From NCBI RefSeq assembly GCF_030407495.1, contig NZ_JASDDG010000037.1, forward strand, positions 1 through 37,034: a stretch of 37,034 nt of DNA. Reading direction: 5' to 3'. The notes under the pieces were generated by a model. It saw only the letters and a list, made by a program, of their open reading frames with translations, had not been told where the DNA came from and did not search any database. Of this stretch, positions 14,421 to 28,437 are shown piece after piece (within the stretch, counting starts at the first letter, position 1; the number at the start of each line of letters is the position of its first letter). The position numbers and the translations under genes were made by a program. This DNA is from Arthrobacter sp. APC 3897. Lineage in GTDB: Bacteria; Actinomycetota; Actinomycetes; Actinomycetales; Micrococcaceae.

Positions 14421-14552
14421 GGCAAAATATTTCCGAGTATTTTCGAGAGTGTTTTGCCCGCACTTTTTGGCGCAGCCGTCCCGATTCGTTTGACTTCTGC
14501 GGGCGTTATCTGCCGCGGATAATCACACAGGAAATGCAGGCGCAATAGCCGC

Positions 14553-24024: not shown

Positions 24025-25446
24025 ATGAGCGGTGACGTTCAGCAGCCGCGCCCGGCCGGCGCGATGTCCGCCGAGTACCGTGCCCTCACCCTGGGCATCC
24101 TGGCGATCATCACCTGTTCCGCCTTCGAAGCGATGGCGGTGACGACGGCGATGCCGGTGGTGGCGGCGGAACTCTCGGCGGGCGCCGGCTACGGGCTGGC
24201 CTTCTCGATGTTCCGCACTGCCTCGCTGCTGGGGACCGTGGTGGCCGGCAGCCGATGTGACCGCGGAGGGCCGCTGCCGTCTCTTGCAGCAGGCATGGTG
24301 CTGATGACCGCCGGACTGGTGCTCTCAGCCCTGGCCGGTGAGTTCTGGATTGTCACCGCCGGCCGGGCAGTGTCCGGGCTCGGCGGGGGAGCCATGATCG
24401 TGGCGGTCTACGTAATCATTGGCGAGATCTATCCGTCGGCGCTCCAGCCTGTGATCTTCGGCTGGCTGGCGGCGGCATGGATCCTGCCTTCCATGGTGGG
24501 GCCGTTGGCGGCGGGCCTGCTGGCGCAGTATGTCAGCTGGCGGTGGGTCTTCGCCGCAGTCATTCCCATCGTGCTGGCTGCCGGAGTGATGGTCTGGCCG
24601 CGGATCCGCAGCCTGGGTCCGCCCGCCAACCCCGCACTGGACGCAGCGGCGGTCCGCCGCCGGGCGCTCTGGGGTACGCTGCTGGCCGCTGCCGTATTCG
24701 TTGCCCAGTGGGCCGGCAGCGCGGCCGCGGCGTCGTCGTCGGCCGCCGTACTGCAGTGGGCCGCCGCCGCAGCGGGGGCAGCTGCGGCCGGTGTTGCGCT
24801 GGGCCGCCTGCTGCCGCCGGGCACCCTGCGCCTGGCCCGGGGACTGCCCGGCGTGGTTGCCACGCGCGGCCTGCTCAGTGCCGGATTCGTAGCGGCGGAG
24901 GCCTTTCTGCCGTTGCTGGTGCTGGCCACGTACGGTGTGGACCCTGCCACTGCCGGACTGGCGCTGACTGCAGGAGCGGTAGGCTGGGCTGTGGGTTCTT
25001 TCCTGCAGGCACGTGCCGGCGGGCGGCGTCACCGGCTTTTGGTGATCGGCGCAACCATGCTGGCCGCGGCCGTGGGAGGAATCGGGCTGCTTGCCTCGCC
25101 GTCGATCCCCTTCTGGGTGATCGTCCTGGTGTGGACCTTCGCGGGAGCGGCCATGGGCCTGGCCCTCTCCAGCACCTCCGTCATGGTGCTGGCACTGTCC
25201 ACTTCCGCGGACCGGGGACGCAATTCCGCGTCCCTGCAGATTTCCGACCAGCTCGGTGCCGTGGCGGGAACCACGGCGGCGGGGATTCTTTTTGCCCTGC
25301 TGCAGGATCCCGCAGCCTCCGGACAGATCGGCGTATTCCGCGTCATGTGGCTTGTCCTCGCGGTCTTTGCGGGCCTGGGGATTGTCTCCGGAGCCCGCAG
25401 TGCAATTGTTACTTCAAATACAGGAAAGGTGCCGTTCACAGCGTGA
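24025..25446 (+). CDS. MFS transporter (drug/metabolite exporter-like)
   Basis: 473 aa with about 12-14 membrane helices. The first helix contains TCSAFEAMAVTTAMPVVAAE, similar to DHA-type exporters, and the loop 2-3 signature is degenerate (GSRCDRGGPLPSLA). RAVSGLGGGAMIVAVYVIIG is the motif-C-like helix region. A long Ala-rich stretch in the middle (about 225-260) is low in complexity. The stop overlaps the helicase start (GTGA), so the genes are coupled. The substrate is unknown. Confidence 0.88.
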   Translation: MSGDVQQPRPAGAMSAEYRALTLGILAIITCSAFEAMAVTTAMPVVAAELSAGAGYGLAFSMFRTASLLGTVVAGSRCDRGGPLPSLAAGMVLMTAGLVLSALAGEFWIVTAGRAVSGLGGGAMIVAVYVIIGEIYPSALQPVIFGWLAAAWILPSMVGPLAAGLLAQYVSWRWVFAAVIPIVLAAGVMVWPRIRSLGPPANPALDAAAVRRRALWGTLLAAAVFVAQWAGSAAAASSSAAVLQWAAAAAGAAAAGVALGRLLPPGTLRLARGLPGVVATRGLLSAGFVAAEAFLPLLVLATYGVDPATAGLALTAGAVGWAVGSFLQARAGGRRHRLLVIGATMLAAAVGGIGLLASPSIPFWVIVLVWTFAGAAMGLALSSTSVMVLALSTSADRGRNSASLQISDQLGAVAGTTAAGILFALLQDPAASGQIGVFRVMWLVLAVFAGLGIVSGARSAIVTSNTGKVPFTA

Positions 25447-27230
25447 GCCCTGACACCCTCTTCGGCGGACCGGCCCTGCCGCCCGCTTACCCGGAACGAG
25501 CCGCGTGGGGAACGGCCCCGAAGCTGCGCCAGTGGCAGGCCGAGGCCCTCGAGAAGTTCTTCGCGTCCGATGCCGATGACTTCCTCGCCGTGGCCACCCC
25601 CGGTGCAGGCAAGACAACGTTCGCCCTGCGCGTGGCCACCGAGCTGGTGGACCGCGGGATCGTCAAACGGATCACCGTGGTGGCGCCCACCGACCACCTG
25701 AAGCGGCAGTGGGCGGATGCCGCTGCCAAGGTGGGACTGGCACTGGACCCCAACTTCAAGAATGCTGACGGCCGCCACGGCGACGGATTCATCGGCGTGG
25801 CAGTGACCTACGCCCAGGTGGCTTCCAAGCCGATGCTGCACCGGGCCAAGACCGAAGCGGCGCGCACACTGGTGATCCTGGACGAGATCCACCACGGCGG
25901 CGACGCGCTGTCCTGGGGCGACGGTATCCGGGAAGCCTTTGAGCCGGCAGTCAAGCGGCTGTCCCTTACCGGTACGCCGTTCCGCTCCGACACCGCGGCC
26001 ATTCCCTTTGTTGAATACGAAAAGGACCGTGACGGGATCCGCCGGTCCAAGGCGGACTACACCTACGGTTACGGGCAGGCGCTGAAGGACCATGTGGTGC
26101 GCCCGGTGATGTTCATGGCTTACTCCGGCACCATGCGCTGGCGCACCAGCGCCGGCGATGAAATGGCTGCCTCCCTCGGCGAGGCCGCCGTCACCAAGGA
26201 CATCACGGCCCAGGCCTGGCGGACTGCGCTGAATCCCACGGGCGAGTGGATTCCGTCGGTGCTGGCTGCCGCTGACCGCAGGCTCTCCGAAGTGCGCCGG
26301 GCAGTGCCCGACGCCGGCGGGCTGGTGATTGCCACCGACCACGACGACGCCCGCGCCTACGCGGGTCAGCTGAAGAAGATCACGGGGGAGTCTCCCACGG
26401 TCATTCTCTCCGACGACGCCAAGGCCTCGGACAAGATTGATGAGTTCTCCGCCGGCGACCAGCGCTGGATGGTGGCTGTGCGCATGGTGTCCGAAGGGGT
26501 GGACGTTCCGCGCCTGGCGGTGGGCGTCTACGCCACCTCCACGGCAACCCCGCTGTTCTTCGCGCAGGCCGTCGGCCGGTTTGTGCGTGCCCGCAAGCGC
26601 GGTGAAACGGCCTCGGTGTTCCTGCCCTCGGTACCCAACCTGATGGCACTGGCGAACCAGTTGGAACTGGAACGCGACCACGCCCTGGACCGCCCGGAGA
26701 ACCATCTGGAAGAAGAAGGGTTCGCGCTGGAGGACAGCCTCATGGAGGCCGCCAACCGCGAAGAAAAGGCTTCCGATTCCCTCACCAAGCAGAAGTTTGA
26801 GGCACTGGAATCCCAGGCCTCCTTTGACCGCGTATTGTTCGACGGCGGCGAGTTTGGCACCGGGGGAGAGCTGGGCAGCGAAGAGGAACAGGACTTCCTG
26901 GGCATTCCCGGCCTGCTCGACGCAGACCAGGTGGGCATGCTGCTGCGCCAGCGCCAGCAGGAGCAGCAGTCCCGCCGCGGCCGCAAGACGGCTGCAGCGC
27001 CCGAGCCGGAAGCCGCCCCCGCGGTCATGGACCACCGGCAGCTTACGGAACTGCGCGGCCAGCTGGCTAAGAACGTCTCGGCCTGGTCAGCCCGCTCCGG
27101 GATGCCGCACGGCGTGGTGCACAGCGAGCTGCGCCGAATCTGCGGCGGACCGCCCGTGGCACAGGCCAACGAGGAACAGCTCAACCAGCGGCTGAAGAAG
27201 CTGCAGGACTGGTTCATCGGGCGCAAGTAG
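25443..27230 (+). CDS. Superfamily 2 DEAD/DEAH-box helicase
   Basis: 595 aa. Motif I is ATPGAGKTT (51-59), motif II DEIH (147-150), motif III LTGTPF (175-180), motif VI AQAVGRFVRARKRGE; a Q-like WQAEAL (31-36) lies before motif I. It resembles UvrB/RecQ-neighbour type restriction-like SF2 helicases (ResIII/helicase C) without a nuclease domain. The C-terminal third (about 420-595) is acidic then Gln/Arg-rich with a short helical tail. Start GTG 25443 overlaps the MFS stop by 4 nt; AGGAAAGG lies 13 nt upstream. The cellular role is unknown. Confidence 0.9.
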   Translation: MSPDTLFGGPALPPAYPERAAWGTAPKLRQWQAEALEKFFASDADDFLAVATPGAGKTTFALRVATELVDRGIVKRITVVAPTDHLKRQWADAAAKVGLALDPNFKNADGRHGDGFIGVAVTYAQVASKPMLHRAKTEAARTLVILDEIHHGGDALSWGDGIREAFEPAVKRLSLTGTPFRSDTAAIPFVEYEKDRDGIRRSKADYTYGYGQALKDHVVRPVMFMAYSGTMRWRTSAGDEMAASLGEAAVTKDITAQAWRTALNPTGEWIPSVLAAADRRLSEVRRAVPDAGGLVIATDHDDARAYAGQLKKITGESPTVILSDDAKASDKIDEFSAGDQRWMVAVRMVSEGVDVPRLAVGVYATSTATPLFFAQAVGRFVRARKRGETASVFLPSVPNLMALANQLELERDHALDRPENHLEEEGFALEDSLMEAANREEKASDSLTKQKFEALESQASFDRVLFDGGEFGTGGELGSEEEQDFLGIPGLLDADQVGMLLRQRQQEQQSRRGRKTAAAPEPEAAPAVMDHRQLTELRGQLAKNVSAWSARSGMPHGVVHSELRRICGGPPVAQANEEQLNQRLKKLQDWFIGRK

Positions 27231-27291
27231 GCAGAACAGATGTCGCCGGAACCGTGCGGGCTGGTCCGGGTCCATGGTTAGCGTCCGTAGA

Positions 27292-27334
27292 ACAGATAAC
27301 GGGCTTACGGGGGACGGTTAGGCCCGTTATCTGT
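27292..27334. repeat. 13-bp inverted repeat downstream of the helicase gene
   Basis: ACAGATAACGGGC (27292-27304) and its exact reverse complement (27322-27334) have a 17-nt loop. It lies about 60 nt after the helicase stop. It could act as a transcript end but has no T-run. It is formed by the first two copies of the motif cluster. Confidence 0.75.
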
Positions 27335-27513
27335 ACTGGAGAGGTCTCAACCCAGAGCGCCAGGGCAGACGGCGAGTCCAAGCACCGGGGTTGAGCGACT
27401 TTGGGGCCCTGATCCGCACAAAGGACCCCTGGCTGCCATCGACGGTGCAGCTATGGCCGGTTCCAAGCGGCGGAGATTACCGTTTGCCCGTACCGGATCG
27501 TTGTGCTGGATCA

Positions 27514-27665
27514 TTCGTGCAGATAACGGGCCTAAACCCGGGCAGCGCGAATTCTTCGTGCAGATAACGGGCGCGAACAGGCGGATATGGCCGTTATGGG
27601 CCCGGGATCTGCACGAGAGATTTCGGCAAGCCCCGTATCTGCACGAGAGATTTCGGCAAGCCCGT
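27514..27665. repeat. Cluster of direct and inverted CAGATAACGGGC-related repeats
   Basis: TTCGTGCAGATAACGGGC occurs at 27514-27531 and 27555-27572 (period 41). Then a 30-bp unit beginning ATCTGCACGAGAGATTTCGG is tandemly repeated at 27607-27636 and 27637-27665, its first ten bases being the reverse complement of TCGTGCAGAT in the earlier copies. The two pairs can therefore form nested stems. With the inverted repeat at 27292-27334 this makes six related copies. Confidence 0.85.
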
Positions 27666-27685
27666 GCCCTGAACGCAGGACCGGG

Positions 27686-27713
27686 GCGACACAGAAGAGG
27701 CGACACAGAAGAG
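27686..27713. repeat. 14-bp tandem duplication
   Basis: GCGACACAGAAGAG is present twice in direct succession (27686-27699, 27700-27713). The second copy contributes the left arm of the following hairpin. Confidence 0.8.
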
Positions 27714-27813: not shown

Positions 27814-28437
27814 TTACAGGTCCAGCAGCTCCACTCCGGCGTCTTCCAGTTCGGCCAGGGCCGCACGGGTGTCAGCGCGGTTGATTCCGGCGCACAGATC
27901 GGGAATGACGAATGTGTCATACCCGGCTGCAACGGAATCCAGCGCGGTGGCCCGGACGCAGTAGTCGGTGGCAAGGCCCACGATGACAACCTCATCGACG
28001 TCGTTCTCGCGAAGCCAATCATCCAGGCTGACCGTCTCGGCCGGATCAGCCGGTGCGGCGGCCGCATCCGGATCGCCCGTCGGCACTTCGTCTTCAGGGG
28101 CAAGCACGCCTTCGAAGCCGGAATAGGCGGCCTCGTACTGGCCTTTGCGGAAGAAGGCATCAATGTGCTCGGTGTCCAGATCCGGGTGCGGGCTGGCTCC
28201 GGTGGTGCCGGCGACACAGTGCACCGGCCAGGATTCCTTGTAGTCCGGGGTGTCCGAGAAGTGGGATCCGGGCTCTATATGCCAGTCCTGAGTCGCAGCC
28301 ACCACGTCGTAGCGGCCCAGCGTCGTCTCGATGTAGTCGGTAATGTCCGACGCCGTGTCGGCACCGCCGGGAACGGCGAGCGAACCTCCTTCGCAGAAGT
28401 CGTTCTGGACGTCAACAACAATCAGGGCGCGCGTCAT
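27814..28437 (-). CDS. pncA: Nicotinamidase (isochorismatase-fold amidohydrolase)
   Basis: 207 aa. Hydrolyses nicotinamide to nicotinate and ammonia for NAD salvage. Catalytic triad D9 (VVDVQNDF), K98 (FRKGQY) and C160 (ATDYCVRATALD); metal ligands D51, H53 and H59 in DWHIEPGSH. An Ala/Pro/Asp-rich stretch (about 113-137) looks like a loop insertion relative to compact PncA proteins. The start overlaps the pncB stop (ATGA), so the two salvage enzymes are coupled, and the product of this one is the substrate of the other. Confidence 0.94.
   Translation of the reverse strand: MTRALIVVDVQNDFCEGGSLAVPGGADTASDITDYIETTLGRYDVVAATQDWHIEPGSHFSDTPDYKESWPVHCVAGTTGASPHPDLDTEHIDAFFRKGQYEAAYSGFEGVLAPEDEVPTGDPDAAAAPADPAETVSLDDWLRENDVDEVVIVGLATDYCVRATALDSVAAGYDTFVIPDLCAGINRADTRAALAELEDAGVELLDL

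Follow-up and report, generated by a model that had tools for sequence, protein, structure and literature searches.

The BIMEs of enterobacteria are extragenic mosaics of inward and direct repeats with a bias towards 3' ends, and REP repeats are found not only dispersed but also flanking the RAYT gene. REPIN-RAYT systems, as presented in the available part of PMC8049555, combine a single-copy, vertically kept gene with dispersed cognate inverted repeats. AbiEi antitoxins bind 23-bp inverted repeats, AbiEi itself bends the DNA, and the gaps within these repeats, 3 bp for AbiEi and 13 bp for Rv2827c, lie one turn apart (PMC7319586, accessible portion). A Vsr-like REase domain, MTES_1575, has been described in a large HEPN fusion protein in the part of PMC3710099 that could be consulted, and the RepRanger table of REP counts, as far as PMC12306157 was available, includes Arthrobacter livingstonensis. 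Here, we report arrays of extragenic sites in Arthrobacter. Their motif varies together with a nuclease-like gene, and this suggests that enzyme and repeats form a partnership not recognised before. Within the accessible text of the open-access literature no description of such a nuclease-repeat system was found, nor is one given in the available portions of PMC12306157, PMC3710099 and PMC3733652; a prior description elsewhere is possible.

Results

A composite array between two convergent genes

The window, by which is meant the whole stretch of 37,034 nucleotides that was analysed, carries a cluster of sites between a gene that is helicase-like by its sequence features and a gene that we take to be pncA, encoding a nicotinamidase-like protein. 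The initial annotation had described six copies of a motif in the order + - + + - - within a gene-free interval, and a scan recovered the same order between the two convergent genes. Exact CAGATAACGGGC lies on the plus strand at 27293-27304, 27520-27531 and 27561-27572 and on the minus strand at 27322-27333, and the two related minus-strand copies lie at 27600-27611 and 27630-27641 with 2 mismatches each. A codon-position gene finder placed 0 genes from the helicase-like stop at 27230 to pncA, where only mechanical open reading frames occur. The features of the interval are the following.

25443..27230, plus strand: helicase-like flanking gene, running towards the array; start uncertain, mechanical open reading frame from 24477
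27283..27660, no strand: whole composite array in the helicase/pncA convergent interval, from the site scan; the interval is also occupied in G007 and G024
27290..27305, plus strand: site 1, B-type element, GAACAGATAACGGGCT, from the scan
27321..27336, minus strand: site 2, B-type, GTACAGATAACGGGCC, 31 bp from site 1 and forming an inward pair with it
27404..27419, minus strand: degenerate site with 4 mismatches, with counterparts in the C58 copy and in G007/G024
27445..27460, plus strand: decayed motif C site, GTGCAGCTATGGCCGG, 2 mismatches, with intact copies in the interval of G007 and G024
27517..27532, plus strand: site 3, A-type element, GTGCAGATAACGGGCC, from the scan
27558..27573, plus strand: site 4, A-type, direct, 41 bp from site 3
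27599..27614, minus strand: site 5, A-type, GTGCAGATCCCGGGCC, inward, 41 bp from site 4
27629..27644, minus strand: site 6, A-type, GTGCAGATACGGGGCT, direct, 30 bp from site 5
27814..28437, minus strand: nicotinamidase-like flanking gene (pncA), running towards the array

Three types of motif (A, B and C) are combined in the interval. Successive 16-mer sites are spaced by 31, 196, 41, 41 and 30 bp, with 31 bp inside the B-type element and 41, 41 and 30 bp inside the A-type element. With up to 2 mismatches to CAGATAACGGGC the window contained 10 matches, 6 of them inside the interval; 100 shuffles gave a mean of 2.9 and at most 7. A weaker match that had been noted near 14504 proved to be a lone 2-mismatch site, CAGATAACGCCC, at 14501-14512, outside any array and at chance level.

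Orthologues of pncA are found in 29/29 genomes of the genus, and the interval was compared in those loci that could be anchored (13 of the 29 could not and were left out). The cluster is present in the same interval of G024 and G007, the two closest relatives of the window genome, G000; 13 other anchored genomes (G002, G003, G019, G023 and nine more distant ones) have no site there. A local duplication accident, which the initial annotation would have concluded from a motif not enriched elsewhere and a cluster missing in close relatives, does not agree with the enrichment of the motif elsewhere and the persistence of the cluster in G024 and G007. The interval was without match among 50,697 phage and 72,556 plasmid records, and a phage or plasmid origin was rejected on this ground. 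A CRISPR array was likewise discarded, with sites in both orientations, several spacings and up to 12 sites.

Beside the array, at 27685-27712, there is an exact 14-bp tandem duplication of GGCGACACAGAAGA, adjoining what by eye is a terminator-like hairpin of pncA. Relatives without an array in the pncA 3' flank (L187, L188, L189, L200, L203, L206) carry long palindromes there, also terminator-like by eye and differing in sequence between clades; they may be either terminators or members of a different family of extragenic palindromes.

A dispersed family in the genome, the genus and beyond

A dispersed repeat family was one of the options raised for the cluster and is borne out by enrichment of the motif across genome and genus relative to reversed controls. 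The 3.79 Mb window genome contained 8 exact 12-mers (reversed pattern, 1) and 55 matches to the degenerate 16-mer (up to 2 mismatches) against 15 in the reversed control. In it 13 arrays were located, the window array and 12 further ones passing the array criterion, as well as two more that are degenerate (L148 and one behind a gene on contig C60). The region at C58:97052 (L142) is 83% alike to window positions 27282-27420 over about 140 bp, non-site sequence included, and this likeness indicates that array segments were copied between places in the genome.

Exact 12-mer copies occurred in 20/29 genomes of the genus, the window genome included, with reversed controls at 0-1. The highest count was 28, in G009, and four of the 20 had only 1 or 2 copies, which could be chance. 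Among 395 genomes of the bacterial family the exact 15-mer was present in 19, namely 16 of the genus, two of genus g26, and G297, where it sits in apparent coding DNA and was taken as chance by eye. The arrays of G002 (Arthrobacter gandavensis JCM 13316) coincide with those of NZ_VTFU01000004.1, and among the matches listed for public contigs there were two array-like flanks, both from Arthrobacter gandavensis. G321, from genus g10, carries the core in two inverted pairs (L323 and L397); on its contig C8 the arms make a 23-bp palindrome, AGTTTTTGGGCAGATAACGGGAC, and its nuclease homologue is followed by an inverted pair of GTTTTTGGACACATACCGGGAC.

Site grammar, helical phase and position

The unit of an array consists of at least one plus site followed by at least one minus site, that is, the sites point inward, and in longer arrays several units follow one another, with a stray site added in a few cases. 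A pair pattern permitting 25 total lengths (35-59 bp) found inward pairs in 17/29 genomes of the genus and in G053, G080 and G321, with reversed controls at 0. Among the matches listed, pairs in these 20 genomes, which we take as genuine, were 43 or 53 bp long, with one of 45, and sites 1 and 2 of the window were picked up as a 43-bp pair. Single pairs in G188, G199, G210, G308 and G334 (50, 50, 44, 51 and 45 bp), all outside the genus, were taken as chance by their length.

Spacings were collected from 77 arrays with at least two sites, drawn from 73 fetched loci and the window and constituting a subset of the arrays of the genus. The 298 adjacent spacings followed a period of about 10.3 bp (R 0.947), with the reservation that orthologous arrays of related genomes are not independent and that tandem duplication inherits spacing. 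Values were mainly 31 and 41, then 51-52, 61-62, 72, 82-84 and 113-115, and the 37 spacings outside 30-32 and 40-42 kept the phase (R 0.71); 12, 16, 29, 33, 56 and 91 were exceptions. As whole-turn spacings recur in direct, inward and outward arrangement, the sites lie on one face of duplex DNA. The binding-site array that had been listed as an option is strongly indicated by this phasing and by the tracking of a DNA-binding nuclease gene described below, from which we infer binding as such.

The arms of inward pairs were not kept complementary. At 31 bp (n=39) they showed 2.51 differences against 2.66 when shuffled, and at 41 bp (n=33) 3.42 against 3.07, which makes them more different than shuffled arms; the sites had been chosen with up to 4 mismatches, which limits variation in this test. 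Since inward arms are no more alike than shuffled ones, their complementarity follows from the shared consensus. Direct neighbours were more alike than shuffled sites, as tandem gain would produce. No compensatory changes emerged when the arms were checked for covariation, and the structured RNA that had been proposed earlier is not supported. Selection on arm pairing is not visible, which speaks against RNA and hairpin readings, and the arrays look like duplex DNA sites, not RNA.

By the codon-position gene finder 75/77 arrays were intergenic (44 co-directional, 26 convergent and 5 divergent), while the remaining two were a single site inside a gene and an array that could not be classified. 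A recount restricted to gaps of 100 bp or more within these loci, related loci not being independent, gave 27 convergent, 43 co-directional and 5 divergent gaps for the 75 with arrays (window included) against 8, 62 and 30 for other gaps. The arrays are thus intergenic with a 3'-end bias, avoiding promoters. Chromosome organisation is a possible effect of such arrays.

A nuclease-like gene at the maf locus

At the maf locus one array lies next to a gene, convergent with maf, whose product joins an AbiEi-like region to a DUF559 domain. The copy of the window genome is located as follows.

Contig C60, matched part 83172-83924 (L384:1321-2262): nuclease gene of the window genome, 314 aa

In this protein AbiEi models (PADLOC) matched within residues 50-147 (E 5e-8; E 1e-10 in the G010 orthologue), and DUF559 (PF04480) matched in the last quarter with 22.7 bits, above the cut-off of 20.6 (E 9e-5). 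DUF559, which we take to be a Vsr-like nuclease domain of the PD-(D/E)XK kind, exceeded the cut-off in 3/6 orthologues scanned, that of the window genome among them, and the MTES_1575 profile stayed below its cut-off wherever it matched in the orthologues scanned. Nine orthologue pairs gave dN/dS values of 0.12-0.25, so that the gene evolves under purifying selection. Sixty residues are invariant in 22 homologues, including W-x-D-L, E-Y-(D/E)-G-x-H-H-L, then Q-Q and R-D; D239, E250, H255, H256, Q261 and Q262 are among the positions without variation and presumably have a catalytic role. Among solved structures there was no convincing sequence match, the best being glucokinases (E 0.06-0.11, taken as chance), and the endonuclease-like 3hrl gave E 0.23 over the DUF559 region. 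Homologues of the fusion protein were present in 25/33 genomes and 23/31 genera searched in the bacterial family; no role for them was found described in the accessible open-access literature.

The neighbours of the gene look like maf, a transporter and a carboxylase, identities that we assume from their appearance; a DUF1814 nucleotidyltransferase toxin, the partner of AbiEi in AbiE, was not noticed among these neighbours. The orthologue is convergent with maf in 25/27 genomes of the genus, the exceptions being G001, with maf on the other side of the gene, and G005, with maf outside the locus. In G013 and G026 only fragments or distant matches of the gene were found. At L303, L273, L265 and L266, all of the maf locus, the codon-bias finder scored the nuclease gene low (4.2-7.8), the likely start having been missed, and this hints at atypical codon usage.

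Repeats accumulate on the 3' side of the gene. Pairs of 11-mers within 400 bp were found 3' of 22/27 genus orthologues versus 4/27 on the 5' side (95 genes in all, two with the 3' flank cut to 140 and 0 bases). The direct-repeat test, run on the 93 genes that remain without these two, was positive behind 20/27 orthologues versus 12/55 control gene ends (p 8e-6). In 18/20 the spacing was 31-32 or 41-42, in all lineages of the gene and whatever the motif, and by eye 4/27 orthologues had no clear array (G001, G005, G016, G022). Among 15 genomes with A- or B-lineage alleles, 12 carry the window motif (up to 2 mismatches) in the 3' flank; the exceptions are G000 and G018, whose best sites have 3 and 4 mismatches, respectively, and G016, which lacks a site. 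The array behind the window genome's own gene is degenerate, with sites of 3 and 5 mismatches to the window motif, and the present specificity of its protein may differ from the arrays of the window.

A general occurrence of 3' arrays behind paralogues and in other genera was not established, direct-repeat frequencies there being at control level (7/20 and 10/43, against the same 12/55). The 11-mer test gave 13/21 on the 3' side versus 10/21 on the 5' side for paralogues, and 19/44 versus 33/44 for other genera. In individual paralogues and other-genus homologues the stop codon is closely followed by palindromes or tandem repeats (L493, L497, L498, L466, L480, L500, L504, L512, L520); examples are GTAAATCGTGCAGACTCGAT-like repeats at 29-30 bp in G018 and G028, and nine 21-bp repeats in G034. 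The homologue of genus g26 at L381 (G080:C1:1276662) is flanked by related repeats both 3' and 5', the 5' ones being 32 bp apart.

Motif C tracks with the allele

The window genome and six genomes whose pncA is 88-96% identical carry three deeply split lineages of the nuclease gene: lineage A in G000, G002 and G003, lineage B in G024, and lineage C in G007, G008 and G019. Alleles are about 49-54% identical between lineages and 66-85% within them. Close relatives with a different allele have a different motif in the array behind the gene. Motif C was derived from the arrays that follow the alleles of G007, G008 and G019; it occurs 23, 39 and 33 times in these genomes, respectively, and 1, 0, 0 and 1 times in their close relatives with alleles of other lineages (G000, G002, G003 and G024). 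The other 25 genomes searched, including G023 with a B allele, have 0 to 3 copies, and reversed controls were 0 in 30/32 genomes, with 2 and 1 in the rest. In the species tree the long branch of G023, whose pncA was misread (151 aa), was ignored. Motif C tracks the gene allele, not the species; of all the evidence, this speaks most strongly for the predicted recognition of the motif by the protein.

A further motif, D, taken from G012, had 7 copies there, 10 in G005 and 5 in G013, with controls at 0. It was matched 7, 4 and 3 times in G019, G007 and G008, whose motif is related, once each in G017, G024 (exact) and G080, and in no other genome.

A homologue of the nuclease gene was found in 32/32 genomes searched (fragments or distant matches only in two), so its mere presence or absence was rejected as the difference between motif-bearing and motif-less genomes, and it is the allele that matters. 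A second paralogue, on contig C17, was considered as the partner of motif C and set aside, as no lineage is markedly closer to it than the others (44-53%). Some copies do not fit the tracking: G007 and G019, with C-lineage alleles, keep 13 and 8 exact A/B 12-mers, and in G024, with a B-lineage allele, 8 of 10 15-mers among the matches listed are A-type. The exact motif D copy of G024, the degenerate flanking sites of the window genome and the four orthologues without a clear array are further misfits. All of these we infer to be remains (fossils) of earlier alleles.

Discussion

We consider it probable that a nuclease and extragenic arrays in helical phase, cognate to it, together form a system with the organisation of REPIN-RAYT but unrelated to it in enzyme and type of site. 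The maf-locus protein, encoded elsewhere in the genome, would recognise asymmetric DNA sites of about 16-23 bp, its AbiEi-like half providing the specific binding. With inward sites on one helix face, several protomers could assemble on a bent or looped array, and the DUF559 half may then nick or cut at or near the sites. Repair or copying of cut arrays would multiply units in place, giving tandem gains of 31 and 41 bp, and might slowly seed new arrays between genes.

More tentatively, and with somewhat less than even confidence, this may be a new class of system, in which an AbiEi-like/Vsr-like nuclease at the maf locus, kept through most of the genus, maintains and spreads its own arrays by cutting and repair. 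Specificity would switch when a divergent allele arrives with its own array, after which the new motif would fill the genome and the older arrays decay as fossils, with motifs A, B and C as three layers of this kind in the window; other genera may have further pairs, formed by paralogues. If this holds, the family of fusion-protein homologues gains a testable substrate, and extragenic inverted repeats have a second origin besides RAYT. The genus would then hold a natural record of specificity change, as close species carry different alleles with different motifs, and paralogues pairing likewise in other genera would provide a large family of unknown function with a role.

The arrays might instead be operators of a transcription regulon, the AbiEi-like protein being mainly a regulator of neighbouring genes. 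Operators would suit the helical phasing, and AbiEi antitoxins are autoregulators that bind inverted repeats, as stated in the available part of PMC7319586. This is nevertheless unlikely given the positions of the arrays, with only 5 divergent gaps against 30 among other gaps and a corresponding excess of convergent ones (27 against 8), and given that 0/27 genus orthologues had an A/B site (up to 3 mismatches) within 320 bp on the 5' side of the matched start, a stretch extending some 140 bp upstream of the likely start codon. In another genus, G053 and G080 do carry A/B sites 5' of the nuclease homologue. Another host protein, such as a nucleoid or domain factor, could also bind the sites, the array beside the nuclease gene being merely long-lived at a convergent locus. 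The placing of arrays at 3' ends and in convergent gaps, as in BIMEs, would agree with such a factor, and binding by the nuclease is itself a prediction, but a factor shared within a close group of species would not predict that motif C follows the nuclease allele there, and we regard this explanation as quite unlikely.

A mobile origin, either as MITE relics of a DDE element or as REP/REPIN elements moved by a Y1 transposase, draws on the observation that homology between loci of one genome often starts at a constant boundary, some 8 bp (ATCCTTC) ahead of the first site. Y1_Tnp (PF01797) was nevertheless found in 0/29 genomes, in a search whose control matched 5/14 known genomes, and REP movement driven by RAYT was rejected for its absence. 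Between arrays about 2.4 kb apart there were apparently ordinary genes, so judged from their sequences on our assumption, in the two loci read, and an autonomous transposon was discarded there; a third neighbouring pair, 6.7 kb apart (L265), was read in part. No target duplication or base-exact empty site was found, boundaries being approximate, and the window interval lacked a match in the phage and plasmid records. In G080 one pair of loci shows 93% likeness across 82 bp, of which about 30 bp are non-site sequence, and this likeness, together with the shared ATCCTTC flank, fits copying more than exact transposition. Mobility of this kind is very unlikely. That the inverted arms act as hairpins, in a structured RNA, a terminator or a cruciform, is highly improbable: the window interval folds 6.9 sd better than its shuffles, which is expected of any inverted repeats, but the arms lack covariation and at 41 bp differ beyond shuffled ones, an Rfam search gave no match at gathering score, and hairpins have no need of two fixed spacings one turn apart.

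The nuclease with its cognate arrays can finally be set beside the described systems. DUF559 together with AbiEi was found in no open-access paper, nor, in the accessible part of that literature, was a link of DUF559/MTES_1575 to dispersed repeats; the C-terminal Vsr-like domain of the maf-locus protein is what it has in common with MTES_1575/DUF559. A single-copy gene kept by vertical descent and dispersed extragenic inverted repeats are shared with REPIN-RAYT systems, which differ in that their gene is a Y1 (HUH) transposase, absent from the 29 genomes as PF01797, whereas the gene reported here encodes a DUF559 nuclease with an AbiEi-like region, and its repeats form phased duplex arrays in place of arms kept complementary. 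Like BIMEs, the arrays are extragenic and 3'-biased, with inward and direct repeats; unlike them, they consist of asymmetric sites at whole-turn spacing and have a different partner. With the type IV toxin-antitoxin AbiE the protein shares the AbiEi-like DNA-binding region matched by PADLOC, but a nuclease domain is attached to it, and in contrast to the sites of AbiEi and Rv2827c the arrays are found behind the gene and dispersed through the genome instead of in the promoter. The one-turn difference between the gaps of AbiEi and Rv2827c, as given in the accessible text of PMC7319586, would suit sites that here lie 31 or 41 bp apart.
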